24,890 nucleotides of DNA from a virus: IMG/VR virus record IMGVR_UViG_3300013110_000163, positions 1 to 24,890 of that record; one strand, written 5' to 3'. The notes beneath the pieces were generated by a model. The model was not told where the DNA came from. It saw only the letters and a program-made list of their open reading frames with translations, and ran no database searches. The translations under genes and the position numbers were made by a program. Below, piece by piece: positions 1,798 to 23,942 of this stretch (positions within the stretch are counted from its first letter, which is position 1; each line of letters begins with the position of its first letter).

Positions 1798-2970
1798 ATG
1801 GCTAGAAAGAAACAAAAACGAGTATCTAAGAAGAAAGACGGGTTATTTTCTGAACCTAAATTTGATGATATTGTTATAGAAGGCGAATTAATGGATATAA
1901 GTGATAAACAACGTCAAGATATTAACCTTAGAATTAATCAGGGTTTAAATTTTTACAATTATCATTTTACTTCAAAGCATTCTAAACAACCATTAATACA
2001 GTGGATGGAAGCACAAAAAGTAGTAGATAAAGAATCTATTAGAAAAGTTCGATCGGCAAAAGATTGGCAAATAGGAATAACTGTGGGCTCTGTAGCAAGA
2101 ATGTTATTAAATGGTTGCCCACCAATGGAAAATCTTTTATTGGCTCTTAGGCAAAAAATAAAAGAGTTACCAGATGTAGTAGAAGAAGAAAAAGAAGAAG
2201 TTAAAAATCTTGCCCCTGTAATATCTATACAGGAACGCATGAAAATAAATCTTAATGAATTTCTTGGTGAGCATGTAGAAGGTGAGATTGATGACTTTTT
2301 TGATAATGGATTAAAAAGTGATTTTAAAATGTCAAATGCATTACAATTAAAGGAGATTACTGGTAAAGCGGCGGCATTAATACCTGCTATATACGCACAA
2401 GAAGTTGCAGACTTTAATACTTTGCTCAATCCTGTAGAGAAAGATGACGAATATGAGCAGTTGGTAGAAGCATACCCATATAAAAAAGCGGAGATAAAAC
2501 GTATATTAGAGTTTTATAATATGCTTATAGAGGATGCCTTACACCATTCTAATATACAAAAAGCAAATCGTAAAGTGCGAGCGAGAAAAGCACCATCAAA
2601 AGAAAAACAAGTAGCCAAATTAAAATACAAAGTAAATGATGACAAGTATAAATTAGTATCAATTGATCCTCAAAATATTATAGGTGCTCAAGAGTTGTGG
2701 GTGTTTAATACCAAAACTCGTAAAATTGGCAAGTATGTTGCTACAAATGGATTTAGTGTTGGTCAATTAGGTATTAAAGGAACTACTATTACTGGATTTG
2801 ATGATGTCAAGAGTATACAAAAAACATTACGCAAGCCTGAAGAATCACTTAAAGAGTTTAATAGTGCTGGTAAAGTAGTATTGCGTAAATTTTTAGATAA
2901 TTTAACTACTACAGGTATTAAATTGAATGGGAGAGTTAATAGCGATGTTATATTGCTGAAGGTATTTTAA
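1798..2970 (+). CDS. Conserved phage protein of unknown function
   Basis: A 390-residue soluble protein I cannot assign. It begins with a very basic tail (MARKKQKRVSKKKDG), contains an acidic Lys/Glu-rich stretch near residues 125-140, and ends in a more ordered domain with the phrase SIDPQNIIGAQELWVFNTKTRK and a GIKGTTITGFD segment. From memory this C-terminal part resembles hypothetical proteins beside structural genes in marine T4-like phages, which suggests a virion or assembly role (inference). The ATG is preceded by an ACGAGG Shine-Dalgarno about seven bases upstream. It is divergent from the gp14 gene, with only 54 bases between the two starts. There is no signal peptide and no obvious membrane segment. 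Confidence 0.8.
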   Translation: MARKKQKRVSKKKDGLFSEPKFDDIVIEGELMDISDKQRQDINLRINQGLNFYNYHFTSKHSKQPLIQWMEAQKVVDKESIRKVRSAKDWQIGITVGSVARMLLNGCPPMENLLLALRQKIKELPDVVEEEKEEVKNLAPVISIQERMKINLNEFLGEHVEGEIDDFFDNGLKSDFKMSNALQLKEITGKAAALIPAIYAQEVADFNTLLNPVEKDDEYEQLVEAYPYKKAEIKRILEFYNMLIEDALHHSNIQKANRKVRARKAPSKEKQVAKLKYKVNDDKYKLVSIDPQNIIGAQELWVFNTKTRKIGKYVATNGFSVGQLGIKGTTITGFDDVKSIQKTLRKPEESLKEFNSAGKVVLRKFLDNLTTTGIKLNGRVNSDVILLKVF

Positions 2971-2976
2971 TAAATA
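2969..2976 (+). promoter_or_regulatory. Late-promoter-like AATAAATA directly abutting gp13 start
   Basis: TAAATA is followed by five bases (CATAT) and then the gp13 ATG at 2982. In T4 late promoters about five bases separate the TATAAATA box from +1, so the transcript would begin at the start codon. No Shine-Dalgarno fits in between. Confidence 0.6.
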
Positions 2977-2981
2977 CATAT

Positions 2982-3746
2982 ATGGCAAGTAAAGAATTAA
3001 CTAAACTAAAAACTGCGTTGTTTGATAATGTTAGATTACGACTTGGTGCTCAGATTATTGACGTTGAATTAGATAATGAGCATTTAGAAGTAGGCTTAGA
3101 AAATGCTATTAATAAGTATCGTCAATTAAGTTCAAACTCTGTAGAAGAATCTTACGGCTTCTTAAAACTTGAGAAAAATAGACAAGATTACTTTTTAGAT
3201 GCTAATGTTTTAGAAGTAAGACAAATTTTCCGTAGAACAATTGGTAGCACAACAGGTGGTGGTGCCTCCAATTTTGAACCATTTGAAGCAGGATATATGA
3301 ATATGTATATGCTTAAAGCAGGTATGGTTGGTGGTTTAGCAACATATGAAATGTTTAGTGGTTATCAAGAAACAGCCGCAAGAATGTTTGGTGGTTTTAT
3401 TAATTATAGATTTGATCCAGTTACTAAAAAATTAACCATTGTGCGTAAAATTGATAGTGATGAAGGTGAAGATGTTTTGATGTGGATGTATAATCAAAAA
3501 CCAGATGAAAATCTTTTACAACATCATATGACTAAGAAATGGATGGAAGATTATACACTTGCTATGAATAAAGAAATACTTGGCGAATCTCGTGGTAAAT
3601 TTGCTACAATTGCTGGTCCACAAGGTGGTACTACTATGAATGGTGCTGAATTAAAAGCAGAAGGACAGCAAATGATGGCAGATTTAATATTACAACTTAA
3701 TAATTACGAAGATGGTGGTGTGCCAATGTCGTTTATTATCGGTTAA
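2982..3746 (+). CDS. 13: Neck protein gp13 (head completion)
   Basis: A 254-residue homologue of T4 gp13, a neck protein that binds below the portal and prepares filled heads for tail attachment. The N-terminal region has RLRLGAQIIDVELDNEHLE, matching the T4 gp13 phrase RRLGAPIINVELTPDQ. The C-terminal region has MTKKWMEDYTLAMNKEILG, a GPQGGTTMNGAEL segment and the terminal PMSFIIG, which mirror WVKDYATALAKELNGQ, PGGVTIDGQRL and PFGILVG in T4. It is shorter than T4 gp13 (309 residues), mainly in the middle. It lies on the opposite strand from the gp14 and gp15 genes, unlike the co-linear 13-14-15 order of T4. Confidence 0.88.
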   Translation: MASKELTKLKTALFDNVRLRLGAQIIDVELDNEHLEVGLENAINKYRQLSSNSVEESYGFLKLEKNRQDYFLDANVLEVRQIFRRTIGSTTGGGASNFEPFEAGYMNMYMLKAGMVGGLATYEMFSGYQETAARMFGGFINYRFDPVTKKLTIVRKIDSDEGEDVLMWMYNQKPDENLLQHHMTKKWMEDYTLAMNKEILGESRGKFATIAGPQGGTTMNGAELKAEGQQMMADLILQLNNYEDGGVPMSFIIG

Positions 3747-3758
3747 TAAATTTCTCTA

Positions 3759-3766
3759 ATTAAATA
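3759..3766 (+). promoter_or_regulatory. Late-promoter-like ATTAAATA abutting the next start
   Basis: TAAATA, five bases (TTACT), then the ATG at 3772. Same geometry as upstream of gp13. Confidence 0.55.
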
Positions 3767-3771
3767 TTACT

Positions 3772-4623
3772 ATGACTCAATCTCCATTGAAGTTCTATGT
3801 TATTGCGTATGCCAGTGGACATAAGGGCAATAAATTAGCACATAATTTAATTACAAAATTTCCAGAGCAATTTGAAGTAAAATACTATAATGAAAAAGTA
3901 CATAAATTAGATGGTTGGGGACATGAGTTTTTAGAACATTATCTTGCAGACATATATTGGTATCATGAGTTTTTACCTGTTGAAAAAAACACGTATTTTA
4001 GTACAGTATTATATCACAAATATGTTGATGAAATTATTGCTGACTTGCATCGTAGGTTACAAGATGATGACAGATATCCACGTAATGATAAATGGAAAAT
4101 AGTTTTAACTCATGGTAGTTCTATTATTCAATTACATGCTATACGTAATCAAATATTAGATGCTCTTGGAGGAGTACTGCTTCTTAATAGGAATCAATTA
4201 GGACATTGTGTCCATATTACTCAAGTAATGTGTGATGATCTACAGCAAAACGCTCAGTATTTTCGTCGGCACCATGAAAGTACTAATGGATATGGTGATT
4301 ATTTTGATGATTTACGTAGTTATGCTATAGGACCTGGTGGGTATATGTATTTTGGTGGGCAAGTAGATGTATCTTTTGAAACGGATACAATTATTAAAAC
4401 AGAAGATATAGATGATGAATCTTTTTATACTTTAGATAATTTATTTAAATCACGCCCAGTTTTACCTGAGTATATTGTAAATCGTTGGACTAAAAATATT
4501 ACTATAGAAGAAGATACTTGGATTTATACTAATATAGCATATAAATTACAGGCATTAGGGTATCAAGTGCCTCCAGATAAAATTTATAAAAATAAGGCAG
4601 ATTTGCTTGCAATTTGTGGTTAG
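3772..4623 (+). CDS. Unknown phage protein, possibly P-loop-like
   Basis: A 283-residue protein I do not recognise. It opens with a hydrophobic strand followed by a Gly/His turn, FYVIAYASGHKGNKLAHNLI, which looks like the strand-loop-helix start of a nucleotide-binding or sulfotransferase-like fold but lacks a proper GxxxxGK(S/T). A second strand-turn is seen at IVLTHGSSIIQLHAI. The protein is rich in aromatic and histidine residues and has no membrane segment. Its N-terminus is reminiscent of the 248-residue product starting at 12992 (FIFLCYPHGAGGEFLSYII); the two could be distant relatives (inference). It sits between gp13 and the dNMP kinase gene with its own late-promoter-like box. Confidence 0.75.
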   Translation: MTQSPLKFYVIAYASGHKGNKLAHNLITKFPEQFEVKYYNEKVHKLDGWGHEFLEHYLADIYWYHEFLPVEKNTYFSTVLYHKYVDEIIADLHRRLQDDDRYPRNDKWKIVLTHGSSIIQLHAIRNQILDALGGVLLLNRNQLGHCVHITQVMCDDLQQNAQYFRRHHESTNGYGDYFDDLRSYAIGPGGYMYFGGQVDVSFETDTIIKTEDIDDESFYTLDNLFKSRPVLPEYIVNRWTKNITIEEDTWIYTNIAYKLQALGYQVPPDKIYKNKADLLAICG

Positions 4624-4641
4624 TTATGCTACAATAATGAA

Positions 4642-5271
4642 ATGATTATAGGACTTGTTGGTCTAAAAGGCTGTGGTAAAGACACAGCGGCTGATTTTTT
4701 TATCACACATTATGATAATTGGATTAAGGGTAGTTTTGCTGACTCTCTTAAAGATACCTGTGCTTGTGTATTTGGTTGGGATAGAGAAATGCTTGAAGGT
4801 AGCACACATGAAAGCAGAGAATGGCGCGAAACAGTAGATAAGTGGTGGGCAGAAAAATTAGATCGTTCAGGCTTTACACCACGTATAGCCTTACAACTCA
4901 TTGGCACGGATTTGTGGCGTAATCAATTTAATGATGGTATTTGGTTATTAAGTTTTGAGAAAAAACTATTAGACATTAAAGAAAATGTTATGATTACTGA
5001 TTGCCGTTTTCCAAATGAGATTGATTTAATTCAACGATTAAACGGAAAAATTGTTAGAGTTAAACGTGGTGAAGATCCACCATGGTGGGATCTTGCTATT
5101 GAAGATAATGCTCGACGAAATGAACCATATTATAATCCAATGGTTCCACAAGCATATCCTGAAGTTCATGCTAGTGAATCTTCATGGGCAGGTTGCACTG
5201 AAGATTATGTTATAGTTAATGATGGAACATTGGAAGATTTAGAAGAGGCAGTTAAGAATCTGAATGTATAG
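4642..5271 (+). CDS. 1: Deoxynucleoside monophosphate kinase, T4 gp1-like
   Basis: A 209-residue P-loop kinase. In T4, gp1 phosphorylates dTMP, dGMP and hydroxymethyl-dCMP to diphosphates for phage DNA synthesis. The P-loop GLKGCGKDTAADFF sits at about residues 7-20. A later ITDCRFPNEIDLI motif (about residues 113-125) matches the (I/V)TDxRFxNE signature of phage dNMP kinases. Near the end, HASESSW plus VIVNDGT is also typical of the family. T4 gp1 is 241 residues, so this is slightly short but appears complete. No late-promoter box or Shine-Dalgarno is evident; the start is 18 bases after the previous stop, so read-through from the upstream promoter is likely. Its last 20 bases overlap the end of the convergent radical-SAM gene. 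Specificity is not visible. Confidence 0.9.
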   Translation: MIIGLVGLKGCGKDTAADFFITHYDNWIKGSFADSLKDTCACVFGWDREMLEGSTHESREWRETVDKWWAEKLDRSGFTPRIALQLIGTDLWRNQFNDGIWLLSFEKKLLDIKENVMITDCRFPNEIDLIQRLNGKIVRVKRGEDPPWWDLAIEDNARRNEPYYNPMVPQAYPEVHASESSWAGCTEDYVIVNDGTLEDLEEAVKNLNV

Positions 5272-6589
5272 CGTCATAAACTACCGGAAAAAGTTCTGGA
5301 TAATTAGTGCCGCGACGTCGGTCTAGTTCGGAAAGATAACGGTGTAGTTGTTTTTGTAATTCCTTATCGGGAGTAGATGCTTTAATACTTTTAGCAATGC
5401 CTTCCCAGTATTCTTTAGTGTTTATTATTGTTTGTTCACCAAATGTTTCTATTCTATTAATAGCTTCAGTATAACCCCAATCAAGAATTTGTGGTCCAAA
5501 TATAGAAGGGTGTATACAAGGTCGTCCACCTGCTTGCATCAATGAAATGTTTACTACTCTATATATTTTCTCTCTTTTTCTTTTTTCGGTTCTATTTTGT
5601 TTAAAAAATTGCTCTTGCCATGTATTAACTTTATCGATGAGATCTGCCATTGTAAAAGTTGTTAATGGCATCCAACACATGTTAATGCTTGGATTCATAT
5701 TAGTATTATCTATATAATAATTAAAATTAGTCTCCCACCATTCAAGATTTAACCCAGATCTAACATATTCTGCTTCCTTACCCCAACAATCTAAACTAGC
5801 GATAAGTTTAAATTGTCTTAAATTACCGTTATCACATAAGGCCTGCATTTTGTCCATCATGCGAGATACTTTTTTTGGTTCTAATGAAAGATTGCTATTA
5901 ATATTTAATATTAATTCAGGACATTTTTTAGTAGATAAGAAATCTAATAACTCGATGGTTTCGGGTTGAGTAAAGGGCTCGCCGCCTAATATATATAAGT
6001 TTCTTAAATGTTGTATATTTTCATCAAGCCAAACATATAGTTTTTCTTTTACATTTAACACGTTACTAGTATAGTTGGATTTCCAGTTTCTTGGATCCAA
6101 ATCTGTTGCAAATCCATACAGATATTCATCTATATGTCCAAATTTCTTATTTTCAGCTTCCCATGTAGTGCTAAAATATTGCCCACAATATGTACAAGAC
6201 ATTTGGCAATTAGTACTAAAAAATAATTCTAATTCAGTAGGGGTAATATTGTCGACTTGAGTAGGATTATCTTTTAATTCCTTTGCAGATTCTGGACCAT
6301 GTGGCCACTTTGAATGCAACATTCTATCGCTCATTCCGCCAGCATCTTCTATAACTTTACAATGTTCACAGCCGTTGCCTGGCCATTCATCCCTGAGCAT
6401 TTTTTGTCTTGCGAGAACTTTTTCTTCAGTGTTATGAAAATCAAAGTTATCTGGTATTCTATCTTGGTCAACTCTGTGGCAACTTGCAGTAGTGTTAGTG
6501 GTTAGAAATATAGTGCTATGTGACCATTTAAGACGACATTGTAAATTCGACTGTAATGGATGCATAAAATAATTTGGTCCGTTTGTCAT
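5252..6589 (-). CDS. Radical SAM protein with N-terminal twitch-like cysteine domain
   Basis: A 445-residue radical S-adenosylmethionine enzyme. The 4Fe-4S motif CQMSCTYC uses Cys128, Cys132 and Cys135; GGEPF at about 202-206 is the SAM-binding GGE motif. Upstream of the core is a cysteine region (Cys18, Cys37, Cys74, Cys77, the last pair as GCEHC) that resembles the auxiliary-cluster twitch or SPASM-type domain, here placed N-terminally. The same architecture recurs at 17793-18998. Such enzymes generally modify peptides or small molecules; the substrate here is unknown. The ATG follows TAAATA by exactly five bases on the minus strand. The HNH gene lies just upstream on the same strand. Other start codons are less likely because of that promoter match. 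Confidence 0.85.
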   Translation of the reverse strand: MTNGPNYFMHPLQSNLQCRLKWSHSTIFLTTNTTASCHRVDQDRIPDNFDFHNTEEKVLARQKMLRDEWPGNGCEHCKVIEDAGGMSDRMLHSKWPHGPESAKELKDNPTQVDNITPTELELFFSTNCQMSCTYCGQYFSTTWEAENKKFGHIDEYLYGFATDLDPRNWKSNYTSNVLNVKEKLYVWLDENIQHLRNLYILGGEPFTQPETIELLDFLSTKKCPELILNINSNLSLEPKKVSRMMDKMQALCDNGNLRQFKLIASLDCWGKEAEYVRSGLNLEWWETNFNYYIDNTNMNPSINMCWMPLTTFTMADLIDKVNTWQEQFFKQNRTEKRKREKIYRVVNISLMQAGGRPCIHPSIFGPQILDWGYTEAINRIETFGEQTIINTKEYWEGIAKSIKASTPDKELQKQLHRYLSELDRRRGTNYPELFPVVYDAIHSDS

Positions 6590-6594
6590 AATAA

Positions 6595-6602
6595 TATTTA
6601 CC
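6595..6602 (-). promoter_or_regulatory. Late-promoter-like GGTAAATA abutting radical-SAM start
   Basis: On the minus strand TAAATA is followed by TTATT and then the ATG at 6589. The box lies in the 15-base gap after the HNH gene's stop. Confidence 0.55.
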
Positions 6603-6604: not shown

Positions 6605-6961
6605 TTAAAAATCTGGTATTAAATCTCCTTGCTTCCATCCTTTTCCTGAGATATATAACATTCTATGGCAATTAGCACACACTGTTCTTAAATTTTTCCA
6701 ATTGTTGTTTTTTCTATTTCCATCTTGATGATATACATCTAGTTGTATATGATGTTGTGGTTTAAAACCACATCTTTCGCATTGAGTTTTTTTAGTATAT
6801 CCGCTTGCTTTCCATTCTGTGTGTGATGTTGTTTCTAATTTTTTATCTTGTCGTATGCATTTATCACACTGTGTTCTGTAATGTGGTATTCCTTTTTTAT
6901 AATAATTTACAGCAACTGGACGCATACCACAACGACAGAGTGGTCTTTTAGCATGTTTCAT
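6605..6961 (-). CDS. HNH endonuclease with zinc ribbons
   Basis: A 118-residue HNH-family nuclease. An N-terminal zinc-ribbon-like set (Cys9, Cys11, Cys32, Cys35) precedes the HNH core: Cys61-x2-Cys64, the catalytic-type His78 within DVYHQDGN, Asn90 within NLRTV, and Cys95-x2-Cys98-His99. HNH proteins of this size in T4-like phages are often free-standing homing endonucleases, and some phage HNH proteins assist DNA packaging; the sequence does not distinguish these. It lies just left of the tail sheath gene, transcribed away from it, with an abutting late-promoter-like box. Insertion between two divergent transcription units is consistent with a mobile homing gene (inference). Confidence 0.85.
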   Translation of the reverse strand: MKHAKRPLCRCGMRPVAVNYYKKGIPHYRTQCDKCIRQDKKLETTSHTEWKASGYTKKTQCERCGFKPQHHIQLDVYHQDGNRKNNNWKNLRTVCANCHRMLYISGKGWKQGDLIPDF

Positions 6962-6966: not shown

Positions 6967-6974
6967 TATTTATT
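6967..6974 (-). promoter_or_regulatory. Late-promoter-like AATAAATA abutting HNH start
   Basis: On the minus strand TAAATA, five bases (ATATT), then the ATG at 6961. It is about 65 bases from the divergent sheath promoter. Confidence 0.6.
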
Positions 6975-7035: not shown

Positions 7036-7043
7036 AATAAATA
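7036..7043 (+). promoter_or_regulatory. Late-promoter-like AATAAATA for tail sheath
   Basis: The box lies 72 bases before the sheath ATG. T4-like geometry puts +1 near 7049 and gives a 67-base leader ending in the CGAGGAAAA ribosome site. This is the longest leader in the window. Confidence 0.6.
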
Positions 7044-10426: not shown

Positions 10427-10449
10427 TGGGGTGGTGTAAAACCACCCCA
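10427..10449 (+). other. 9-bp GC-rich stem-loop between sheath and tube genes
   Basis: TGGGGTGGT and ACCACCCCA pair perfectly around a GTAAA loop. The T-run lies before the stem, not after it, so it is not a classical intrinsic terminator on the plus strand. Position just after gp18 suggests an mRNA processing or 3'-end stabilising element, allowing different sheath and tube mRNA levels (inference). Confidence 0.6.
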
Positions 10450-10456: not shown

Positions 10457-10464
10457 GATAAATA
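10457..10464 (+). promoter_or_regulatory. Late-promoter-like GATAAATA for tail tube
   Basis: Predicted +1 near 10470, giving a 17-base leader with a strong AGGAGAAGA ribosome site before the ATG at 10487. This suits a highly expressed structural gene. Confidence 0.65.
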
Positions 10465-11105: not shown

Positions 11106-12138
11106 GGCATCATTTATAACGAATTTCTTGCATGGAATCGGTAGTGGAGAACATATCAAAGACTACCGCCATGCAAGTAATCTTTTCACTCATGATAATT
11201 TTAGGTTATCACCTAAAACCGCATTTTTATATCATTGTCTAATTAAATTAAATAGGCAAGCAGTTGGATATTCTGGTATGTCTGCAATGTTACAACATGA
11301 ACCTGAGTTAAGTTTCATGGTTAAAGCAGTAGATTTGCCTAGAATGTCGGTTGATATTGAAGAATTAAATCAATATAATCGAAAAACTTATAATATGACA
11401 AAAGTTAATTATAGTCCTATAACTATAACTTTTCATGATGATAGTGCAAATACAATTCGTGATTTCTTAGCAAATTATTATAATTACTATTTTAGTGACG
11501 GATCAGTTAGTCATGACGCGCAACATGATTTGCGTGATGGGACTGGACTTCGCCAGTCATATAGTCAAAATGGTTTTCTTGGTACTGGCGGAGCTTGGGG
11601 TTTAGATTCAACCTTCACACATGAGGCGAGAGGACAAAATTTACTTGATTATATTCAAATATATTCTTTAAGTAAAGGCAGAGCAAGTGGTTATAAATTG
11701 ATAAATCCAATACTTTCAGGTATAAATCATGGCACTCATGATGCTTCTGCTGGTGGCACTCCGATGGAACATAGTGTTACTGTAAATTATGAAGCAATTA
11801 TGTATGATGAAAAACAAGTATCTGAAATGAGTATTTTAGGTGGTTCTTTTTATGATAGAGAGAAAAGCGTATTGTCTGGAGCGGGTGGCGGAACTAATAG
11901 TGTATTAGGTCCAGGTGGCATGTTTGATAAAGGTATGGATATTTTTGGTAATTTACAACAAGGTGGCATTGGTGGTATAGCAAAAGCTGCTATAAATGCA
12001 TATTCTTTAAAAGAGCAAATGCGCCGTTTTGATGCAAGAGATTCTTTAAAACATGAAGTTCGTGATATGTCACGAGGCGTGGAAGACTATGTAGCACGTG
12101 AAGTTGGAAAGAAATTTGCAACAGCAACTCGTGAGTAA
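11104..12138 (+). CDS. Tail-tube-like virion protein (gp19/gp54-type fold)
   Basis: A 344-residue protein directly after gp19, starting with GTG. Its central region reads like a tube-fold protein: LSFMVKAVDLPRMSVDIEEL, then NRKTYNMTKVNYSPITITFHD, then a helix and an YYNYYFSDG loop, and a C-terminal HSVTVNYEAIMYDE strand. This pattern (strand ending in LPR, Y-x-P-Φ-T-Φ-T-F, final beta strand) is shared by gp19 and by the tube initiator gp54 of T4. A Gly-rich linker and a charged helical tail follow from about residue 260. It could be the tube initiator, a tube terminator, or a second tube protein; the sequence does not decide. No late-promoter box is seen, so it is probably co-transcribed with gp19. 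Confidence 0.7.
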   Translation: MASFITNFLHGIGSGEHIKDYRHASNLFTHDNFRLSPKTAFLYHCLIKLNRQAVGYSGMSAMLQHEPELSFMVKAVDLPRMSVDIEELNQYNRKTYNMTKVNYSPITITFHDDSANTIRDFLANYYNYYFSDGSVSHDAQHDLRDGTGLRQSYSQNGFLGTGGAWGLDSTFTHEARGQNLLDYIQIYSLSKGRASGYKLINPILSGINHGTHDASAGGTPMEHSVTVNYEAIMYDEKQVSEMSILGGSFYDREKSVLSGAGGGTNSVLGPGGMFDKGMDIFGNLQQGGIGGIAKAAINAYSLKEQMRRFDARDSLKHEVRDMSRGVEDYVAREVGKKFATATRE

Positions 12139-12141
12139 ATA
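12134..12141 (+). promoter_or_regulatory. Late-promoter-like AGTAAATA abutting the next start
   Basis: TAAATA overlaps the previous stop codon; five bases (TTACG) follow before the ATG at 12147. Confidence 0.5.
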
Positions 12142-12146: not shown

Positions 12147-12539
12147 ATGGCCATTAATAAAACTAATTTACCTATATTTGATGAGACTTTTGCTGAGTTT
12201 ACGCAAGATGAAAAACAAAAGCAATTTTTTAGTAATTATTATACACAAGTAGATTCAGTAGATCCAGCACATTTTGATATTGTGCGTGGTTTTCTTGTAG
12301 GTAAAAATTTTGATGCATCAACTGTTGATAATTTAGTTATATCATTGTTAGAAGTAGCAAAAGAGCAAGATTTAAGTATACCTGATTTAATAGAGCAATT
12401 AGATGGTTTGGAAGATACATTGCAACTTAATACCTTATTAAGTTTATTATTAAATACTACAAGAAATCGAACCAGTATATTGGGTTTTGAACAAACTACG
12501 GCAGTTTCTGATAATATTTCTCGAACTATACTGGCTTAA
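12147..12539 (+). CDS. Small unknown protein, likely virion-associated
   Basis: A 130-residue, largely helical, acidic protein I cannot name. It starts MAINKTNLPIFDETFAEF and has Leu-rich helices near residues 60-105. It lies between a tube-like gene and the gp4 nuclease gene, on the same strand, so a role in assembly is plausible from context only. The ATG is directly downstream of a TAAATA-N5 promoter-start unit, which supports the chosen start. Confidence 0.75.
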   Translation: MAINKTNLPIFDETFAEFTQDEKQKQFFSNYYTQVDSVDPAHFDIVRGFLVGKNFDASTVDNLVISLLEVAKEQDLSIPDLIEQLDGLEDTLQLNTLLSLLLNTTRNRTSILGFEQTTAVSDNISRTILA

Positions 12540-12980: not shown

Positions 12981-12986
12981 TAAGTA
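12979..12986 (+). promoter_or_regulatory. Variant late-promoter-like AATAAGTA abutting a GTG start
   Basis: TAAGTA (one change from TAAATA) is followed by five bases (TTAGT) and a GTG at 12992. The geometry is identical to the TAAATA-N5-ATG units, which supports it as a weaker promoter for the accessory block. Confidence 0.4.
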
Positions 12987-12991: not shown

Positions 12992-13738
12992 GTGTTCGTC
13001 TTACCTGAATTAAATTTTATATTTTTATGTTATCCACACGGTGCAGGTGGAGAATTCTTGTCCTATATTATAAGCAAATCAGACGAGTGTAATACTTTAG
13101 ATAGGCGTAAAATAGGTGATAGGTATAAAGTTGATGACGTATTTAATCAAAACTTATTGCGTATGGATTTTAAGCCAGAAAGATTATATGATCATAAAGA
13201 TATAAACACATTAGATAAAGACAAATATGTTGTAGTTCCTACGCATTATAGAGAAGATGACATATGGAAGTATTTTAAAAGATATAAATTTATTAATATA
13301 ACATATCCTGCTTCTAAAGAAGGCCATAAGCAAATATTACGCAATATTAAAAGTAAAGTTTGGTATCAGCCACAGCCAACACAGTTAGAATTTTTTGGTA
13401 TGTTGTTACAGTTAACTACGAATAATGACAAATCGTGGTATATCAATACACATTATAATATGAATACTATAGATATCATACTTGCCTCACGTAAACAAGA
13501 ATTAACAGATAAAAATAGAAAAAAATTAGAAAAAGAATGGGATAAAGCAGAGTATAATTATCATTCTGTTGTTGATAGAAATTTAAATATAAATTATGAT
13601 GATTTAGATGCTCGTCAACAATACGTGCCATCACAAAGTAGAGTATTGAGGCAAATAAGTCAACATTGTGACATAACTATGCAAGATGAGTTACATCAAG
13701 AGTTTCGAGTTAAAATAGAAAATGACAAACAAATATGA
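12992..13738 (+). CDS. Unknown protein with P-loop-like N-terminus, first gene of the accessory block
   Basis: A 248-residue protein beginning with GTG. The N-terminal strand-loop-helix FIFLCYPHGAGGEFLSYIIS looks like a P-loop or sulfotransferase-like phosphate-binding start, although no GK(S/T) is present. A second strand with a Thr-His turn, KYVVVPTHYRED, and a third, KFINITYPASKEGHK, fit an alpha/beta fold in which an anion is bound; sulfotransferases are one option, not shown. The rest is Lys/Tyr/Asn-rich. The next in-frame ATG would remove the first strand, so GTG is preferred. The 3' end overlaps the next gene by 17 bases. Confidence 0.75.
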   Translation: MFVLPELNFIFLCYPHGAGGEFLSYIISKSDECNTLDRRKIGDRYKVDDVFNQNLLRMDFKPERLYDHKDINTLDKDKYVVVPTHYREDDIWKYFKRYKFINITYPASKEGHKQILRNIKSKVWYQPQPTQLEFFGMLLQLTTNNDKSWYINTHYNMNTIDIILASRKQELTDKNRKKLEKEWDKAEYNYHSVVDRNLNINYDDLDARQQYVPSQSRVLRQISQHCDITMQDELHQEFRVKIENDKQI

Positions 13739-15390: not shown

Positions 15391-16393
15391 TGCAGACAAA
15401 GTAAATTTATTACATGTTGAACCTACAACAAGATGTAATGCATCTTGCCCTGGTTGTCCACGTAATAATAATGGATTTGGGGTGAGAGATGATTTAATAA
15501 TTGGTGATATAGATCCAAATGTTGTAATTAACGTTGCAAGAAAACTTACTGAGTTAAAAGTAATACATTTGTGTGGTAATTTAGGAGATCCAATAGCATA
15601 CAAATATTTGAATGAATTAATTGATCAAGTTATAAAACAAAACAAATATTTTTGGAAACGGTATGAATTTTACCCAACAGGTGAGTATAAAGATCATTGG
15701 TTTGTTGATATACACACAAATGGTAGTTTACGTTCAGTAAAATGGTGGCAAGAATTAGGTGAGAAATGTAATAAAAATTTATATAGATTACATAAAATTG
15801 TATTTGGTATTGATGGATTAAAAGATACTAATCATATATATAGGCAAGCAACTAATTTTAATAAAATAATAGATAATGCTAAAGCTTTTATAGATAGTGG
15901 CGGGGTTGCGGAATGGCAGTTTTTAATATTTAAGCATAATGAACATCAAGTTGAAGATGCAAGGCAACTGTCAGAAAGTATAGGGTTTACTAGATTTTAT
16001 ACAAGGCAACCGTGGTTTACTAAAGCATTTCATTGGAAAACTAATGAAGAATATTACTTAGAACCAGGAAGTGTGTTTGGTGATGTGCAACGACCTAATG
16101 ATATGTATCATGAAAATAAATTATATGGAGATCCAGAGGCAGAAAACGAACTTCGTACAGATAACACTTATGTTAAAAGTGAGAACTGTATGCATTTAGA
16201 TATACACCAAGATAATTCTAATTTATATAGTATGTTTATGTCAATTGATGGAAAAGTTATGCCATGTTGTCATTGGTCTAATAGGTTTCCTTATAAAGAA
16301 GAATATGATATAGAAACATTAGATATTAGAAAAGAATTTAGTACTAATAACTATCGTTTAACTTGCCGGGCGATATGCGGATCAATTGAATAA
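15380..16393 (+). CDS. Radical SAM/SPASM protein, copy 1 of a tandem pair
   Basis: A 337-residue radical SAM enzyme. The cluster motif CNASCPGC gives Cys19, Cys23 and Cys26, after the strand LLHVEPTTR. The usual GGEP is replaced by LCGNLGDP, a variant seen in a class of SPASM-type radical SAM proteins. A C-terminal SPASM-like region contains ENCMHLD, VMPCCHW and CRAICG. It is a clear paralogue of the next gene: long stretches match, including NGSLRSVKWWQELG and GVAEWQ, but this copy has extra segments near residues 85-100 and 225-260. It overlaps the SGNH-like gene by 11 bases and shares one base with the next gene (TAATG). The substrate is not known. Confidence 0.87.
   Translation: MYINADKVNLLHVEPTTRCNASCPGCPRNNNGFGVRDDLIIGDIDPNVVINVARKLTELKVIHLCGNLGDPIAYKYLNELIDQVIKQNKYFWKRYEFYPTGEYKDHWFVDIHTNGSLRSVKWWQELGEKCNKNLYRLHKIVFGIDGLKDTNHIYRQATNFNKIIDNAKAFIDSGGVAEWQFLIFKHNEHQVEDARQLSESIGFTRFYTRQPWFTKAFHWKTNEEYYLEPGSVFGDVQRPNDMYHENKLYGDPEAENELRTDNTYVKSENCMHLDIHQDNSNLYSMFMSIDGKVMPCCHWSNRFPYKEEYDIETLDIRKEFSTNNYRLTCRAICGSIE
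15407..15480 (+). repeat. 74-bp exact direct repeat, copy 1 (radical SAM motif)
   Basis: This stretch, covering LLHVEPTTR to NNNGFG, is identical base for base with 16414-16487 in the paralogous gene. A further 38-bp identity links 15587-15624 and 16594-16631. Confidence 0.9.
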
Positions 16394-17313
16394 TGTATAC
16401 TGAAAAAACAACATTATTACATGTTGAACCTACAACAAGATGTAATGCATCTTGCCCTGGTTGTCCACGTAATAATAATGGATTTGGTCTTGCAGACGGG
16501 TTTGTGTTGCAAGATTTATCACCTGACACTATTGTTGCAGAGGCAAGTAAATTGCCTAATTTAAGAGCAATTCATTTGTGCGGTAATTTAGGCGATCCAA
16601 TAGCATACAAATATTTGAATGAATTAATTGACAAGGCAGTGGCCCAAACTAGATTTTTTCATCAATTTCTTAAAGTAGATAGATGTTGGGATATTAATAT
16701 AGCAACCAATGGCAGTTTGCGTTCAGTAAAATGGTGGCAAGAGTTAGGTAAAAAGTGTAGTGTAAATCTTACTAACTCTCATACTGTAGTGTTTGGTATT
16801 GATGGGTTAGCAGACACGAGTCCAATGTATAGACAAGGAACTAATTTTAATAAAGTAATTGATAATGCTAAAGCGTTTATAGATGAAGGTGGTGTTGCAG
16901 AATGGCAATATCTAGTTTTTAAACACAATCAACATCACATTGAGGAAGCAAAGCAACTAGCAAAAGATATAGGATTTAAGAAATTTTTTGTATTACAGCC
17001 GCATATCACATCGGCATATCATTGGAAAACAGGAGAAAGATATTATTTAGAACCAGCAGATTTTATAGAATCTAAGGATAAAGCAAATAATACATATGTT
17101 AAACATGAAGATTGTATGCATATAAATGTAAATGGTAATGGAGATTATAGTTTATTTTTAACAGTGGGTGGTAAATTAACACCTTGTTGTCATTTTGATA
17201 TTTTAGGAACCTCAAAAGAAGAATATGATATAGAAACATTAGATATTAAAAATGAATTTGATAATAATGAATACCGATTTACATGTCGTAGGAAGTGCGG
17301 ATCAGTTAAATAG
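16393..17313 (+). CDS. Radical SAM/SPASM protein, copy 2 of a tandem pair
   Basis: A 306-residue paralogue of the preceding gene. CNASCPGC provides Cys17, Cys21 and Cys24; LCGNLGDP again replaces GGEP; the SPASM-like tail has EDCMHIN, LTPCCHF and CRRKCG. By eye more than half of the residues match copy 1, with the core and the SPASM tail best conserved, and the substrate-facing regions differing. Two different copies of one family next to each other suggest either two related substrates or two steps in one pathway (inference). The gene ends just before the gp16 promoter-start unit, and the TAAATA of that unit overlaps its stop codon. Confidence 0.87.
   Translation: MYTEKTTLLHVEPTTRCNASCPGCPRNNNGFGLADGFVLQDLSPDTIVAEASKLPNLRAIHLCGNLGDPIAYKYLNELIDKAVAQTRFFHQFLKVDRCWDINIATNGSLRSVKWWQELGKKCSVNLTNSHTVVFGIDGLADTSPMYRQGTNFNKVIDNAKAFIDEGGVAEWQYLVFKHNQHHIEEAKQLAKDIGFKKFFVLQPHITSAYHWKTGERYYLEPADFIESKDKANNTYVKHEDCMHINVNGNGDYSLFLTVGGKLTPCCHFDILGTSKEEYDIETLDIKNEFDNNEYRFTCRRKCGSVK
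16414..16487 (+). repeat. 74-bp exact direct repeat, copy 2 (radical SAM motif)
   Basis: Identical to 15407-15480. Exact identity at synonymous sites, while flanking sequence has diverged, points to recent gene conversion or recombination rather than protein constraint alone. Confidence 0.9.
17305..17312 (+). promoter_or_regulatory. Late-promoter-like GTTAAATA abutting gp16 start
   Basis: TAAATA, five bases (GTATT), then the ATG at 17318. The box overlaps the end of the upstream radical-SAM gene. Confidence 0.6.
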
Positions 17314-17317: not shown

Positions 17318-17806
17318 ATGACAAAGAAATTAGAAGAATTGTTTGATTTAGAAACACCTGTTGAAGAAATACAACCAGATAGTAAGATAGCAAAAACTGA
17401 TGCTAAAAAACTTAAAAAAGTTCTGTCTGATGTAGATAAAATAGACAGTGCTTTGCCACTTGTGCGAGATTTGGAAGCAAATGACTTAGAAATGGATAGT
17501 ATTGCTACTAAATCTGTAGATACGTTTAATGACTTGATGGACTTGGGTATGAATGTAGAGGCACGATACGCAGGTAAAATATTTGAAGTTGCTGGTACTA
17601 TGATGAAAAATGCTATAGATGCCAGAACAGCAAAAATAGATAAAAAGTTGCGTATGGTCGAATTACAGATTAAAAAACAACGGGTTGATCAACAAGGTAA
17701 AGACTTGGATCCATATAGTGATACTATGGATGGAGAAGCAACAATAGTAGCAGATCGCAATGAGTTAGTAAAACAAATCTTAAATCAAAATAATGACAAG
17801 AAATAA
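17318..17806 (+). CDS. 16: Terminase small subunit gp16
   Basis: A 162-residue protein matching the T4 gp16 length of 164. gp16 assembles as rings that regulate the large terminase during DNA packaging. The central coiled-coil-like helices (LMDLGMNVEARYAGKIFEV, then MMKNAIDARTAKIDKKLRM and ELQIKKQRVDQQ) match the gp16 plan of a long helical hairpin, and an acidic N-terminus plus a short C-terminal NELVKQIL helix are also as in T4. A longer reading frame starting at 17252 exists, but the ATG at 17318 is chosen because it follows a TAAATA-N5 unit and gives the usual size. It is separated from gp17 by about 4.5 kb of other genes. The last 14 bases overlap the next gene. Confidence 0.8.
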   Translation: MTKKLEELFDLETPVEEIQPDSKIAKTDAKKLKKVLSDVDKIDSALPLVRDLEANDLEMDSIATKSVDTFNDLMDLGMNVEARYAGKIFEVAGTMMKNAIDARTAKIDKKLRMVELQIKKQRVDQQGKDLDPYSDTMDGEATIVADRNELVKQILNQNNDKK

Positions 17807-18998
17807 TATTTGCATATTGCCGTGGGTATCTGTAGCAATAATGCCCGATGGTAATGTGTATCCCTGTTGTATGTCTATGCATGGCACAGCAATGGGAAAT
17901 GTTAATGAATCCTCTTTAGAAGATATTTGGAATAGTGATGTATCGAGAGACATACGCAAAGACTTCCTTGCTGATAAACGTCTTGATATGTGTTCTGAGT
18001 GTTGGAAAGTAGAAGATAAAGGCAACTTCCATAGCACTCGTTTGTGGGCCAATAAAAACTTTAAACATCATTTTAGTTTATTAGAAAATACTAATGATGG
18101 TAGAGCAGATATGAATTTAATTTATACTGATATACGATTCTCTAATAAATGTAATCTTATGTGTTTTTATTGTGGCTCGATTTTTAGTAGTAAGTGGGAG
18201 GCCTTTAATAAGAAAGTTAGTAAAAAAGTATCACCTATTCCTAAAATAAACAAACCTGAAAATTTATTAAACAGTTTAATAGATAACATTTCTAAAGTAG
18301 AACAAATATATTTGTCTGGTGGTGAACCAAGTATAATGGAAGAGAGTTATACTATGCTTGAAGCAATAATTGATATGGACCTATCTAAGAATATTAAACT
18401 ATTATTGAATAGTAATATGTCCAATGTAACATATAGGGGCAAAAACTTTTGGGACATATTATCAAAGTTTAAAGAAGTAGAACTTGCCGCAAGTATTGAT
18501 GAGATAGAACAACGTGCAGAATGGATACGTTATGGTGAAAAATGGCCTAATATTGTAGAGACTAATGATTATGTTAAACAATATCCTAACATTAGTGTGC
18601 AATACTCACCTGTTGTTTCTATGTTTAATTTTCATAGATTGCCAGAGATAATAACACATTGGCAAAATAAAGGATGGATTACGAAAAACTTTCATAATGT
18701 TTATTTGGCAGAGCCAGGTCATGGTACAAGTTCTGATTATAGATATATGCCAATGAAATGGAAACAGCATGTTAAAGAAGTTATGGAGTGTTTTCTTGAA
18801 GAAACCCAAATGCATATAAAAAATAGATTTTTATTTGATACTGCTACTAGTTTAATAAAAACAATGATAGAATTTAATGATGAAATAAAGATACGAGAGA
18901 ATATAACGTGTGTAATGGATGATATTAAACGACATGACGTATATAGAAAAGTAAAATTTATAGATATATTTCCTGAATTAGAGTTTTTAAATGAATGA
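17793..18998 (+). CDS. Radical SAM protein with N-terminal twitch-like domain
   Basis: A 401-residue radical SAM enzyme with the same architecture as the minus-strand gene at 5252-6589. The N-terminal region has CILPWVSVAIMPDGNVYPCC (Cys7, Cys25, Cys26) and MCSEC (Cys67, Cys70), a half-SPASM arrangement that normally lies C-terminal in this superfamily. The core follows with CNLMCFYC (Cys120, Cys124, Cys127), LSGGEPS (about 174-180) and a strand LLLNSNMSNV. The family resembles twitch-domain radical SAM proteins found in marine phages; the substrate is unknown. It overlaps gp16 by 14 bases and the methyltransferase gene by 8, so it is expected to be co-expressed with packaging genes. Confidence 0.87.
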   Translation: MTRNNICILPWVSVAIMPDGNVYPCCMSMHGTAMGNVNESSLEDIWNSDVSRDIRKDFLADKRLDMCSECWKVEDKGNFHSTRLWANKNFKHHFSLLENTNDGRADMNLIYTDIRFSNKCNLMCFYCGSIFSSKWEAFNKKVSKKVSPIPKINKPENLLNSLIDNISKVEQIYLSGGEPSIMEESYTMLEAIIDMDLSKNIKLLLNSNMSNVTYRGKNFWDILSKFKEVELAASIDEIEQRAEWIRYGEKWPNIVETNDYVKQYPNISVQYSPVVSMFNFHRLPEIITHWQNKGWITKNFHNVYLAEPGHGTSSDYRYMPMKWKQHVKEVMECFLEETQMHIKNRFLFDTATSLIKTMIEFNDEIKIRENITCVMDDIKRHDVYRKVKFIDIFPELEFLNE

Positions 18999-19698
18999 TT
19001 ATTGGAAAACAATACCTGGATATTTTCCTCCGACAAGTGCAGAAGGAATAACATATATTATTCCAGAATTACCATCGTCAGGCACTATATTGGAACTTGG
19101 TAGTGCTTATGGTAGATCTACATGTTATTGGGCAGGGCAGTTAATTAAGCATGGTAAAAATTATGACATCGTAACTATAGACGATTGGTCACTTATTACA
19201 GAAAAAATACATCCTTTATTTAAAAATTTAAAAGAAGGTAATAAAATTGGTAAGGATTGGGGGAATAATATATCTAAAATAATACTTGGAAATGATTGTA
19301 CCTCAGAGGAAAATTTACTTAAATTGCGAAATTGTTATCTTTATAATTCTCCAACTATGGCAGAATTATTTGATGATTATACTGAACCATATAAAAATAT
19401 GATTACAATATTAGATATAGATTTATTTAATCAAGCATACGCGGCTCCAGAAAATGTACAATGTGTTTTTGATGCTATTGGCAGTAAGTATGAAAAATGG
19501 TTTAATATAATATATGATAAACTAGAAGTTGGCGGTTATTATATTTTTGATAAACAAGCAATATATAGGGATAAAAAAATAATGGGTTATTTAGATCAGT
19601 TTTTGGCTAATAAAGGCACTAAAATACAAGATTTACAACTTAAAAATATACAAAGTAACGTATCAGAAATAAAATATTTTATAAAAACAACTAAATAA
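18991..19698 (+). CDS. SAM-dependent class I methyltransferase-like protein
   Basis: A 235-residue protein with a Rossmann-type methyltransferase core. Motif I is TILELGSAYGRSTCYWA (about 32-48). Motif II is an acidic strand end, IVTIDDWS (60-67), and a later strand, MITILDIDLF, may correspond to motif IV. A final strand GGYYIFD follows. The pattern resembles the small-molecule and sugar methyltransferases of the Methyltransf_24 kind, not a DNA methylase, since no DPPY or PC motif is present. It overlaps the radical-SAM gene by eight bases and completes the accessory block. Substrate unknown. Confidence 0.75.
   Translation: MNDYWKTIPGYFPPTSAEGITYIIPELPSSGTILELGSAYGRSTCYWAGQLIKHGKNYDIVTIDDWSLITEKIHPLFKNLKEGNKIGKDWGNNISKIILGNDCTSEENLLKLRNCYLYNSPTMAELFDDYTEPYKNMITILDIDLFNQAYAAPENVQCVFDAIGSKYEKWFNIIYDKLEVGGYYIFDKQAIYRDKKIMGYLDQFLANKGTKIQDLQLKNIQSNVSEIKYFIKTTK
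19690..19697 (+). promoter_or_regulatory. Late-promoter-like ACTAAATA upstream of the CTS-type protein
   Basis: The box overlaps the end of the methyltransferase gene. Predicted +1 is near 19703, giving a leader of about 22 bases with no strong ribosome site. Confidence 0.5.
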
Positions 19699-19724
19699 GT
19701 ATAATACCTTAATGGGCCAATATT

Positions 19725-20327: not shown

Positions 20328-20328
20328 A

Positions 20329-22167: not shown

Positions 22168-22172
22168 AGTTA

Positions 22173-22334: not shown

Positions 22335-22345
22335 CCGTTTTCCCT

Positions 22346-22353
22346 GTTAAATA
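22346..22353 (+). promoter_or_regulatory. Late-promoter-like GTTAAATA abutting gp17 start
   Basis: TAAATA, five bases (GTAGT), then the ATG at 22359. Confidence 0.6.
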
Positions 22354-22358
22354 GTAGT

Positions 22359-23942
22359 ATGGCCAATAAATCTCTCGATGGCAATTTAGTCAAGCGAGCA
22401 CACGCAAAAGAAAAATATACTGATGATCAACTATTGGAGTTGGCAAAATGTGCAGATTTGGCGACTGGTCCTGGTCATTTTATAAACAATTATTTTTGGA
22501 TACAACATCCGCGACGCGGCCGTATTCCGTATAAAGCGTTTGACTATCAAACAAGATTATTAGCAAGTTATCATGATAATAGATTTAGTATAAATTTAAT
22601 GCCACGGCAAACAGGTAAAACTACAACTGCCGCAGGTTATATATTGTGGTATGCTATGTTTATACCTGATAGTGCAATACTAATTGCCGCACACAAATAT
22701 GCAGGTTCCCAAGAGATTATGCAACGTATACGATATTCGTATGAAGACGTGCCAGATCATATACGCCCAGGTGTGTATAGTTATAACAAAGGTAGCATAG
22801 ACTTTGATAATGGCAGTAGAATTGTCAGTACAACAACTACTGAAAACACTGGACGTGGTATGGCACTCAGTATGCTATATTTAGACGAGTTTGCGTTTGT
22901 AAAACCCAGCATTGCGAGAGAGTTTTGGACAAGTATTTCACCTACATTAGCAACAGGCGGTAAAGCAATAATAACATCAACGCCAAACAGTGATGAAGAT
23001 CAGTTTGCTATGATTTGGCGCCAAGCAAATAAAACTATAGATGATGAAGGTAACGAAACTACTGTAGGACGCAACGGATTTTTTGCTTTTAGGTCATACT
23101 GGAATGAACATCCAGAGCGTGATGCTCAGTGGAAAGCGGAAGAAATGGGACGCATTGGTGCTGAACGTTTCGCTAGAGAGCATGATTGTGAGTTTCTTAT
23201 TAATGATGAAACATTAATAGACTCTAGGGCATTGTCAATGTTGCGTCCAACTGATGTATTAGAAAAACATGGACAAGTTAGGTGGTTTGATAAACCTAGA
23301 AAAGGACATAATTATTTGGTGTCACTTGATCCAAGTTTAGGAACAGGCGGAGATAATGCCGCCATTCAAGTGTTTGAAATACCAACTATGAAACAAGTTG
23401 CTGAATGGATGCATAACAAAACACCAGTTCAAGGACAAGTAAAAATATTACGGGATATTACTAATTATATTGCAGATGAGATAGATCACAGAGATGAATC
23501 AAACCCGGCCGTTTGGTATAGTATAGAAAATAATACATTAGGTGAAGCGGCACTTGTAGTTATTGATGATATGGGTGAACAGCAATTTGGTGGTGTATTT
23601 TTAACAGAAACTCGTAAGCATGGTAATACAAAACGTTATAGGAAGGGGTTTAATACTACCCATAAAAACAAATTATTAGCATGTAGTAGGTTAAAAAATC
23701 TTGTTGAAACAGACAAGATAAAGTTAAGAAGTAAGAATTTAATATCAGAACTAAAAACATATATTGCCCGTGGGCAAAGTTATGCCGCTAAAGACGGTGA
23801 AACGGATGATTTGGTTTCTGCTACATTATTAATAATACGGATGAGTTATGAAGTAAGGCAATGGGATATTAATTTATTTGACAGACTTAAAGATGGTTTA
23901 GATCAAGAGCATGATATGCCGATGCCTTTTATAATAGTTTAA
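22359..23942 (+). CDS. 17: Terminase large subunit gp17
   Basis: The ATPase-nuclease motor that packages phage DNA; 527 residues against 610 in T4. The ATPase half shows the Walker A variant MPRQTGKTTT (81-90), Walker B MLYLDEFAF (172-180, with catalytic Glu177) and the coupling motif ITSTPN (205-210). The nuclease half starts around the acidic SLDPSLGTGGDNAAIQ (322-337, Asp324), followed by IENNTLGEA and a late acidic TDDLVSA segment, matching the RNase H-like nuclease of gp17. The start follows a TAAATA-N5 unit. The gene lies about 4.5 kb after gp16, unlike the adjacent 16-17 pair of T4. Confidence 0.97.
   Translation: MANKSLDGNLVKRAHAKEKYTDDQLLELAKCADLATGPGHFINNYFWIQHPRRGRIPYKAFDYQTRLLASYHDNRFSINLMPRQTGKTTTAAGYILWYAMFIPDSAILIAAHKYAGSQEIMQRIRYSYEDVPDHIRPGVYSYNKGSIDFDNGSRIVSTTTTENTGRGMALSMLYLDEFAFVKPSIAREFWTSISPTLATGGKAIITSTPNSDEDQFAMIWRQANKTIDDEGNETTVGRNGFFAFRSYWNEHPERDAQWKAEEMGRIGAERFAREHDCEFLINDETLIDSRALSMLRPTDVLEKHGQVRWFDKPRKGHNYLVSLDPSLGTGGDNAAIQVFEIPTMKQVAEWMHNKTPVQGQVKILRDITNYIADEIDHRDESNPAVWYSIENNTLGEAALVVIDDMGEQQFGGVFLTETRKHGNTKRYRKGFNTTHKNKLLACSRLKNLVETDKIKLRSKNLISELKTYIARGQSYAAKDGETDDLVSATLLIIRMSYEVRQWDINLFDRLKDGLDQEHDMPMPFIIV

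Follow-up and report, generated by a model that had tools for sequence, protein, structure and literature searches.

Predicted leaderless mRNAs from T4-type late promoters in an uncultured jumbo-phage clade and in SAR11 myophages

The present analysis concerns a TAAATA box located exactly five bases before the ATG of seven genes in a 24,890-nucleotide (nt) stretch of viral DNA (IMG/VR record IMGVR_UViG_3300013110_000163, positions 1 to 24,890; hereafter, the window), and the leaderless late mRNAs that such boxes would produce. The closest described system is late transcription of phage T4, in which promoters of the type TATAAATA are served by gp55, the co-activator gp33, and the sliding clamp gp45, the last two linking the promoter to replication; in the published account (PMC2988020), the TAAATA core lies about one helical turn before the transcription start (+1), there is no -35 element, and an AT-rich stretch follows the box. 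The late promoters of marine cyanophages and Pelagibacter phages, given as NATAAATA, have the same box (PMC2984593), and a published prediction of late promoters in pelagimyophages is described there as unsuccessful (PMC7029224). Leaderless mRNAs are known from other phages: according to a review, most middle and late mRNAs of Thermus phage phiYS40 are leaderless (PMC3594737), and the paper on phage AR9 describes phage transcripts as often leaderless (PMC5312081). In Deinococcus-Thermus, a -10 motif next to open reading frames (ORFs) gives leaderless mRNA, as reported in a 2025 paper (PMC12340547). For T4 gene e and I-TevI, a hairpin that hides the ribosome-binding site in longer RNAs, with late-only translation, has been described (PMC3014915). 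No statement of leaderless use of T4-like late promoters was found in the literature searched, most subscription papers lying outside it.

According to PHROG matches, the window carries terminase, tail tube, tail sheath, and head-tail genes, and its gene order resembles that of PA5oct. The terminase is nearest to those of the jumbo phages PA5oct, Phosso, and Atu_ph07 (47–52% identity); judged by this sequence, the phage falls outside the typical marine T4-like phages. The whole window is included in record G001 (158 kb) at 99.996% identity. Record G005 (235 kb) belongs to the same species, the compared stretches of 21.6 kb and 5.4 kb being 99.9–100% identical to G001. Three relatives are represented by G004 (322 kb), G003 (202 kb), and G006 (355 kb), with terminases 93%, 83%, and 63% identical to that of the window, respectively. 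The G records are fragments or of uncertain completeness. Occurrences of TAAATA followed by ATG after k bases were counted on both strands for k from 0 to 40, with the mean of k 12–40 as background and Poisson P values, from which the pooled counts of loci L001–L080, containing repeated contigs of the same species, were left out.

The results indicate that gp55-type late promoters of these phages probably yield predicted leaderless mRNAs without a Shine-Dalgarno (SD) sequence beside leadered ones, and we assign this reading a probability of about 0.85. All seven sites listed in the preliminary description of the window were found, with ATGs at 2982, 3772, 12147, 17318, and 22359 on the plus strand and at 6589 and 6961 on the minus strand. 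Dinucleotide shuffles of the window gave a mean of 1.61 such sites and a maximum of 6, so that none of 100 shuffles reached seven; TAAATA as such is scarcer in the window than expected (30 vs. 61). In the larger records, k = 5 exceeded the background in G004 (46 vs. 9.55, P 2e-17), G001 (27 vs. 5.24, P 2e-11), G003 (25 vs. 5.62, P 2e-9), G006 (15 vs. 4.38, P 5e-5), and the Pelagibacter phage HTVC008M (14 vs. 3.45, P 2e-5). The comparison with spacings of 3–9, named in the preliminary description as able to refute the idea, did not do so in the larger records, the counts for k 3–9 in G004 being 6, 5, 46, 14, 10, 9, and 11. Four control hexamers gave no comparable peak at k = 5. No significant excess was found in T4 (10 vs. 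5.86), PA5oct (15 vs. 12.1), Syn9 (3 vs. 2.62), and the last 115 kb of G005 (3 vs. 2.17). This last region (positions 120001–235363) holds the late sigma gene and only three leaderless-type sites, so these sites would be concentrated elsewhere in the genome.

At k = 5, most of the ATGs are the start of an ORF of 60 amino acids (aa) or longer: 34 of 46 in G004, 25 of 27 in G001, 21 of 25 in G003, 11 of 15 in G006, and 12 of 14 in HTVC008M, compared with 2.7, 1.5, 1.3, 2.4, and 0.8 ORF-opening ATGs, respectively, per other spacing. In an unbiased scan of hexamers at each position from -45 to -6 before starts, TAAATA at -11 was the top signal in G001 (P 1.5e-25), G003 (4.7e-19), and G004 (3.4e-27), where it outranked every SD hexamer. 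In HTVC008M, it was a close second, and for Syn9 no signal was listed. The class uses the AUG start: TAAATA-N5-GTG showed no excess in G001, G003, and G004, with a weak one in G006 (5 vs. 1.7, P 0.03).

The preliminary description had proposed two classes of late mRNA, leaderless and leadered, and the distribution of predicted leader lengths supports this division, with a peak at 0, a shoulder at 1–4, a trough at 5–9, and a broad spread beyond. Leaders of 0, 1–4, 5–9, and 10–59 nt are predicted for 34, 10, 3, and 64 genes of G004; 26, 6, 3, and 33 of G001; 21, 7, 2, and 33 of G003; and 9, 8, 1, and 73 of G006. When genes with intergenic boxes 9–130 bases away are counted as leadered and those with shorter distances are left out, the leaderless fraction of boxed genes is 34/95 in G004, 25/66 in G001, 21/71 in G003, 11/72 in G006, and 12/25 in HTVC008M, with 3/36 in T4 and 3/65 in PA5oct. 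The statement that no SD fits upstream held for the leaderless class as a whole. Among ORFs of at least 80 aa, an SD-like tetramer precedes only 6 of 80 leaderless starts (G004 3/30, G001 1/23, G003 2/19, G006 0/8), which is the level of internal ATGs (0.08–0.10), compared with 35/66, 19/40, 17/37, and 41/71 starts with a box at k 12–74 in G004, G001, G003, and G006, respectively (0.46–0.58). The sheath and tube genes retain a leader and an SD in G001, G004, and G003.

The leaderless state is conserved between close relatives. Among G001 leaderless genes with a reciprocal best match in G004, 18 of 21 are leaderless there as well, compared with 1 of 128 other pairs (Fisher P 3.5e-19); between G001 and G003, 11 of 19 are kept (P 4e-8). 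Of the seven genes of the window, five are kept in G004 (2982, 3772, 6961, 17318, and 22359) and three in G003 (2982, 17318, and 22359). In the 11 G001–G003 pairs leaderless in both, in which the box is identical by choice of pairs, the 29 bases before the box (-40 to -12) are 42% identical and the spacer 55%.

Three features of T4-type late promoters are present: a position about one helical turn before the predicted +1, no -35 element, and a gp55-family sigma encoded by the phage. The position of +1 was assessed at intergenic boxes 9–150 bases from a gene and without an ATG at spacing 5. The sixth base after these leadered boxes was A in 48 of 68 cases in G004 (P 7e-9), 31 of 45 in G001 (P 7e-6), 33 of 51 in G003 (P 8e-4), and 38 of 70 in PA5oct (P 0.01). 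The preference was not significant in T4 (20/38), HTVC008M (8/15), and Syn9 (10/30), with purine fractions of 0.71–0.80. By this preference, +1 would fall on the A of the ATG in leaderless genes. No strong -35 consensus was found in the 30 bases before the box, in line with the low identity of the -40 to -12 region. Within the octamer, the two positions preceding TAAATA show only weak conservation in the clade of the window, which differs from T4 in this respect; A at the second position is clear in HTVC008M. The gp55-type late sigma families phrog_234 and phrog_12791 each matched 15 of the 19 records searched, and the sigma of the window's species is encoded in G005 (E 5e-77). The four records without a match (G001, G007, G008, and G010) are partial records of 82–158 kb. 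The family phrog_205, also tried as late sigma, proved to be the wrong family and gave no match.

In addition, coding DNA avoids the box. Comparison with synonymous shuffling showed that TAAATA is the most avoided of the 15 hexamers consisting of four A and two T inside genes, strands pooled. The observed/expected ratios (sense, antisense) were 0.51 and 0.59 in G004, 0.36 and 0.62 in G001, 0.49 and 0.55 in G003, and 0.30 and 0.30 in G006. In counts, this corresponds to 128 vs. 251 expected sense occurrences in G004, 39 vs. 130 in G006, and 40 vs. 110 in G001; antisense, to 156 vs. 265, 39 vs. 135, and, more weakly, 85 vs. 135. As a separate observation, GCAGCA/TGCTGC is nearly absent from the coding sequence of G001, G003, and G004 (observed/expected 0.01–0.03), and AGCT-containing hexamers are strongly avoided there, as if evading a host restriction system.

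Comparison with cultured marine T4-like phages, suggested in the preliminary description, gave a divided result: HTVC008M and Mosig, both infecting SAR11, have the spacing, Syn9 has no peak, and Melnitz shows no significant excess (3 ORF starts vs. 1.3). At the leaderless spacing, 12 ORF starts vs. 0.8 were counted in HTVC008M (P 6e-11) and 6 vs. 1.0 in Mosig (P 5e-4). Thus, two separate branches, the uncultured jumbo-phage clade and SAR11 myophages, share what appears to be a leaderless spacing. In HTVC008M, 12 of the 14 TAAATA-N5-ATG sites are RefSeq start codons, including those of the DNA end protector, head closure, baseplate tail tube cap, baseplate wedge subunit, tail completion, tape measure, and CsgF proteins. 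The end protector and head closure genes are divergent, with 26 bp between the start codons and a box of its own at -11 for each. The host strain of both HTVC008M and Mosig is named (Candidatus Pelagibacter ubique HTCC1062), which makes the proposal testable. A further feature of HTVC008M is TATATT at -6, directly before ATG, whose enrichment (10 vs. 0.41) matches that of the late box.

The possibility that the spacing is a general feature of gp55 phages was rejected, since T4, PA5oct, and Syn9 have no peak at starts. In other phage records, hits were compared with a reversed-pattern control: RaK2 5 vs. 17, 121Q 6 vs. 11, SCTP-2 24 vs. 19, S-PM2 5 vs. 3, P-SSM4 4 vs. 6, phiM7 0 vs. 0, Vibrio 2.275.O 3 vs. 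3, PhiW-14 0 vs. 0, Phosso 3 vs. 2, and Atu_ph07 15 vs. 9. Leaderless early promoters were also considered and rejected, as TATAAT has no preferred spacing to ATG.

The following mechanism can be proposed. TAAATA would form the core of a late promoter of the T4 type, recognized by the phage's gp55-family late sigma on host RNA polymerase, and transcription would start at the sixth base past the box, usually A. In 15–38% of genes with an intergenic box, this A would coincide with the A of the ATG, and the resulting mRNA, having neither a leader nor an SD, would need leaderless initiation; the remaining boxes, located further upstream, would give leaders, about half of them with an SD. Lacking its own SD, a leaderless gene would be poorly translated from read-through RNA and translated well only from RNA that begins at the late promoter of that gene. 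Read-through must occur often, since most leaderless genes have a close co-directional gene upstream: 20 of 25 in G001 (median gap 15), 26 of 33 in G004 (31.5), and 17 of 21 in G003 (16). Genes with leadered boxes have wider upstream gaps (59, 45, and 70 in G001, G004, and G003, respectively). We infer the location of +1 on the start codon in the cell, the role of gp55 as the factor, and the poor translation of read-through mRNA. A more far-reaching version, which we advance only tentatively and with the odds somewhat against it, is a late-only gate: a gene without an SD would be silent on early and read-through RNA and translated only when gp55-RNA polymerase starts on its AUG. Promoter choice and translation mode would then form one 11-base switch, a distinct regulatory class in two gp55-bearing branches.

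Several other explanations of the pattern were weighed. The box at -11 might be a translation signal, that is, an A/U-rich ribosome-binding element replacing the SD on longer transcripts; it does sit at the SD position, and the leaderless genes lack an SD. A signal acting only in RNA is not expected to be avoided antisense in coding DNA, as TAAATA is, and the same hexamer also occurs at greater distances before genes, many of them with an SD, where the sixth base again tends to be A; we therefore regard this explanation as quite improbable. Somewhat easier to entertain, though still unlikely, is that the boxes are promoters with a start shifted by 1–3 bases, which would leave leaders of 1–3 nt or clip the ATG. 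Predicted leaders of 1–4 nt do exist (10 in G004, 6 in G001, 7 in G003, and 8 in G006), and a near-leaderless state may be tolerated. In G001, G003, and G004, however, the leadered boxes favour A at the sixth base, and among the neighbouring spacings four is not raised and six only slightly, which speaks against such a shift.

That the ATGs are not real starts, the true one being a codon further downstream preceded by a short leader and an SD, appears very improbable. Starts in uncultured phages are predictions, and the ORF of ATG 17318 has a longer possible start. In the 18 G001–G004 pairs, however, codons 2–11 after the ATG already differ chiefly at third positions (13, 5, and 32 differences at the three positions, of 180 each). 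Alignments run from residue 1 to residue 1 in 18 of 18 pairs with G004 and 7 of 11 with G003, partly by construction, and the agreement with annotated starts in HTVC008M points the same way. Chance or composition, with TAA stops of upstream genes standing beside ATG starts in AT-rich DNA, can practically be dismissed. The boxes at 12136 and 2971 do abut or partly cover the stop codon of the preceding gene, but this explanation is refuted, as far as sequence can, by the spacing spectra, the comparison with control hexamers, the shuffles, and the conservation of sites whose flanks have drifted, and T4 and PA5oct, with similar GC, lack the peak at gene starts.

With these explanations set aside to the degrees stated, leaderless use of gp55-type late promoters is well supported by spacing, conservation, the A at +1, SD absence, avoidance, and the gp55 homologue, all of which are properties of sequence, and the leaderless late transcripts of the preliminary description stand as a prediction. 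A number of results weigh against it. In G006, TAAATA at -11 is outside the best seven hexamer signals, as it is in PA5oct and T4; the sixth base is A in 33 of 75 leadered boxes (P 0.08, not significant); and the leaderless state is kept in 0 of 7 genes from G001 and 1 of 10 from G004. In the window, the box of ATG 12147 is not conserved in the G004 or G003 orthologues, nor that of ATG 6589 in the G004, G003, or G006 orthologues. The codon-position bias after the ATG is nearly gone in G001–G003 pairs (40, 34, and 47 of 110). SD use is modest overall, with SD-like tetramers in 36–38% of box-less genes, and SD absence at leaderless starts is partly forced, because the box sits in the SD position. 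The largest control effects at k = 5 with ATG were those of TAATAA in G003 (17 vs. 9.5, P 0.02) and TAAGTA in T4 (5 vs. 1.8, P 0.03). Avoidance of TAAATA is not special to leaderless phages: it is also seen in HTVC008M, T4, PA5oct, and Syn9, weaker or chiefly antisense, with TAAATA the lowest of the 15 hexamers. Other hexamers, mostly restriction-like, are avoided more, TAAATA ranking 36th of 1839 in G001 and 117th of 3161 in G004. The jumbo-phage gp55 homologue has no C-terminal hydrophobic (clamp-binding) motif by eye. The Pfam clamp model PF02916 found no clamp in the G records; this model exceeded the cut-off in T4 only, missing cyanophages and the annotated processivity factor of HTVC008M. 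The gene calls are greedy longest ORFs, and the P values treat sites as independent.

Compared with the systems described above, the boxes of the window share with T4 late promoters the core and its distance from the predicted start, the lack of a -35 element, the AT-rich stretch past the box (PMC2988020), and the gp55-family sigma. They differ in that no leaderless class is visible in T4, where 10 sites stand against a background of 5.9 and 3 of them begin ORFs of 60 aa or more (vs. 2.0 per other spacing), and in that the top start signal of T4 is AGGAGA. The same box is found in the marine cyanophage and Pelagibacter phage promoters (PMC2984593), and HTVC008M and Mosig share the leaderless spacing with the clade of the window, while Syn9 does not. 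With phiYS40, as described in the review, the likeness lies in leaderless middle and late phage mRNAs (PMC3594737); the host differs, and an IF2/IF3 shift is not known for the present phages. A promoter element a few bases before the start codon is shared with Deinococcus-Thermus (PMC12340547), where the promoters are cellular, whereas here a phage late box would be used. As for T4 gene e and I-TevI, whose protein is described as made from RNA starting at its own late promoter (PMC3014915), the proposed outcome is the same; the hairpin found there would be replaced here by the absence of any SD. The HNH endonuclease of the window may be mentioned in this connection, as it falls in the leaderless class. 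T4 late transcription is a textbook system in which a leaderless late class is not visible, and here the same promoter type seems to be used in two ways; at the gene starts of three jumbo-phage genomes, no single hexamer signal is stronger than the leaderless box. The pattern offers a ready test of leaderless mRNA translation, would help start-codon calling in such phages, and supplies candidate late promoters for pelagimyophages.

The two classes had been suggested to control virion protein dosage. Among 24 of the 25 leaderless G001 genes scanned against PHROGs (one spanning a piece boundary was omitted), 11 had matches: an adaptor, a terminase, a baseplate-like protein, a PAAR protein, two radical SAM proteins, an HNH endonuclease, a nucleotidyltransferase-like protein, and three families of unknown function. 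Only 4 of the 24 matched virion or packaging families, and the class thus extends beyond virion proteins. Both the window's phage and HTVC008M have a leadered sheath gene, and several leaderless HTVC008M parts are low-copy in T4. In the survey of HTVC008M leaders, which covered 54 of 198 genes, the predicted leaders were 56 nt for the sheath, 25 for the portal, 14 for the prohead protease, 13 for another wedge subunit, and 3 for adaptor Ad2. Counter to a dosage pattern, the leadered genes include those of the portal and one baseplate wedge subunit, and no box lies within 100 bases of the terminase gene. Within this survey, a link between leader class and protein copy number is suggestive, with exceptions.

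The seven ATGs of the window open frames of 118–527 aa, and six of them are the longest starts of their ORFs. On the plus strand, the box at 2971..2976 precedes the predicted leaderless gene of head-tail adaptor Ad2 (2982..3746; phrog_211, E 7e-32), with the same spacing in the orthologues of G004 (92% identity) and G003 (80%). The box at 3761..3766 precedes a gene without a PHROG or Pfam match (3772..4623), the box being kept in the G004 orthologue (78% identity). On the minus strand, the predicted leaderless gene at 5252..6589, with a box at 6595..6600, has a weak radical SAM match (phrog_13987, E 8e-5; PF04055 below the cut-off), and the HNH endonuclease gene (6605..6961; phrog_2255, E 5e-10) has a box at 6967..6972, kept in G004 (89% identity) and absent in G003. 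Back on the plus strand, the box at 12136..12141, overlapping the stop codon of the upstream gene, is followed by a gene without a PHROG or Pfam match (12147..12539). The predicted leaderless gene at 17318..17806, with a box at 17307..17312 kept in G004 (92% identity) and G003 (74%), belongs to a family of unknown function (phrog_16202, E 1e-12) and has a weak match to the terminase small subunit (phrog_445, E 8e-4). Its ATG is in frame and 66 bases downstream of 17252, the longest start of the ORF, and the protein aligns from residue 1 to residue 1 with orthologues having the same box. The last of the seven, the terminase large subunit gene (22359..23942; phrog_36964, E 8e-116), has its box at 22348..22353, kept in G004 (93% identity) and, with different spacer letters, in G003 (83%). 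The NTANT-like look ascribed to the spacers is weak, with a maximum of 0.8 bits at the base preceding the ATG.

The eighth site of the preliminary description, a TAAGTA box (12981..12986, plus strand) five bases before GTG 12992, is present and would make the gene at 12992..13738, with no assigned function, a possible eighth leaderless gene. The box and spacing are kept in the G004 and G003 orthologues (89% and 53% identity). Genome-wide, TAAGTA-N5-GTG shows no excess (G001 1 vs. 1.55; G003 3 vs. 1.45, P 0.18; G004 2 vs. 2.45), and it was rejected as a general variant, this being a single conserved case.

Leadered boxes had been described for the sheath, tube, and gp14 genes. The first two were correct: the box at 7038..7043 (plus strand), with orthologous boxes in G004 and G003, predicts a 67-nt leader with GAGG before the tail sheath ATG 7116, and that at 10459..10464 (plus strand), with an orthologous box and SD in G004, G003, and G006, a 17-nt leader with AGGAG before the tail tube ATG 10487. 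The identification of gp14 was not confirmed, as the only match of the gene at 23960 is a "virion structural protein" family; its box (23945..23950, plus strand, inside TATAAATACTAT) predicts a leader of 4 nt. Two further boxes precede virion structural protein genes, namely, that at 1768..1773 on the minus strand (19-nt leader to ATG 1743, gene 535–1743) and that at 19692..19697 on the plus strand (22-nt leader to ATG 19725). The sequence just 5' of the tube box (10428–10448) contains a terminator-like inverted repeat, GGGGTGGT...ACCACCCC; G004 and G003 have a similar one in which the letters have changed. In addition, five radical SAM-like genes are located among the head and tail genes of the window (5252–6589, 13722–14615, 15380–16393, 16393–17313, and 17793–18998).

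Genes for translation factors were also noted in the phage records. IF3 disfavours leaderless mRNAs and was considered as a marker; an IF3 homologue is encoded in 5 of 22 records (Atu_ph07, Phosso, RaK2, 121Q, and Vibrio 2.275.O) and was found in no clearly leaderless-rich record among the 22, but also in none of several others. A homologue of bS21 was not found in the partial records G002 and G009; it is present in 13 of the 22 phage records, including G001 (101762–101917), G003–G006, HTVC008M, and Mosig. G001 also encodes an EF-G homologue (137153–139252; L114:17153-19252) of 699 aa as called from TTG, with Pfam matches to all EF-G domains and a late box at k = 27.

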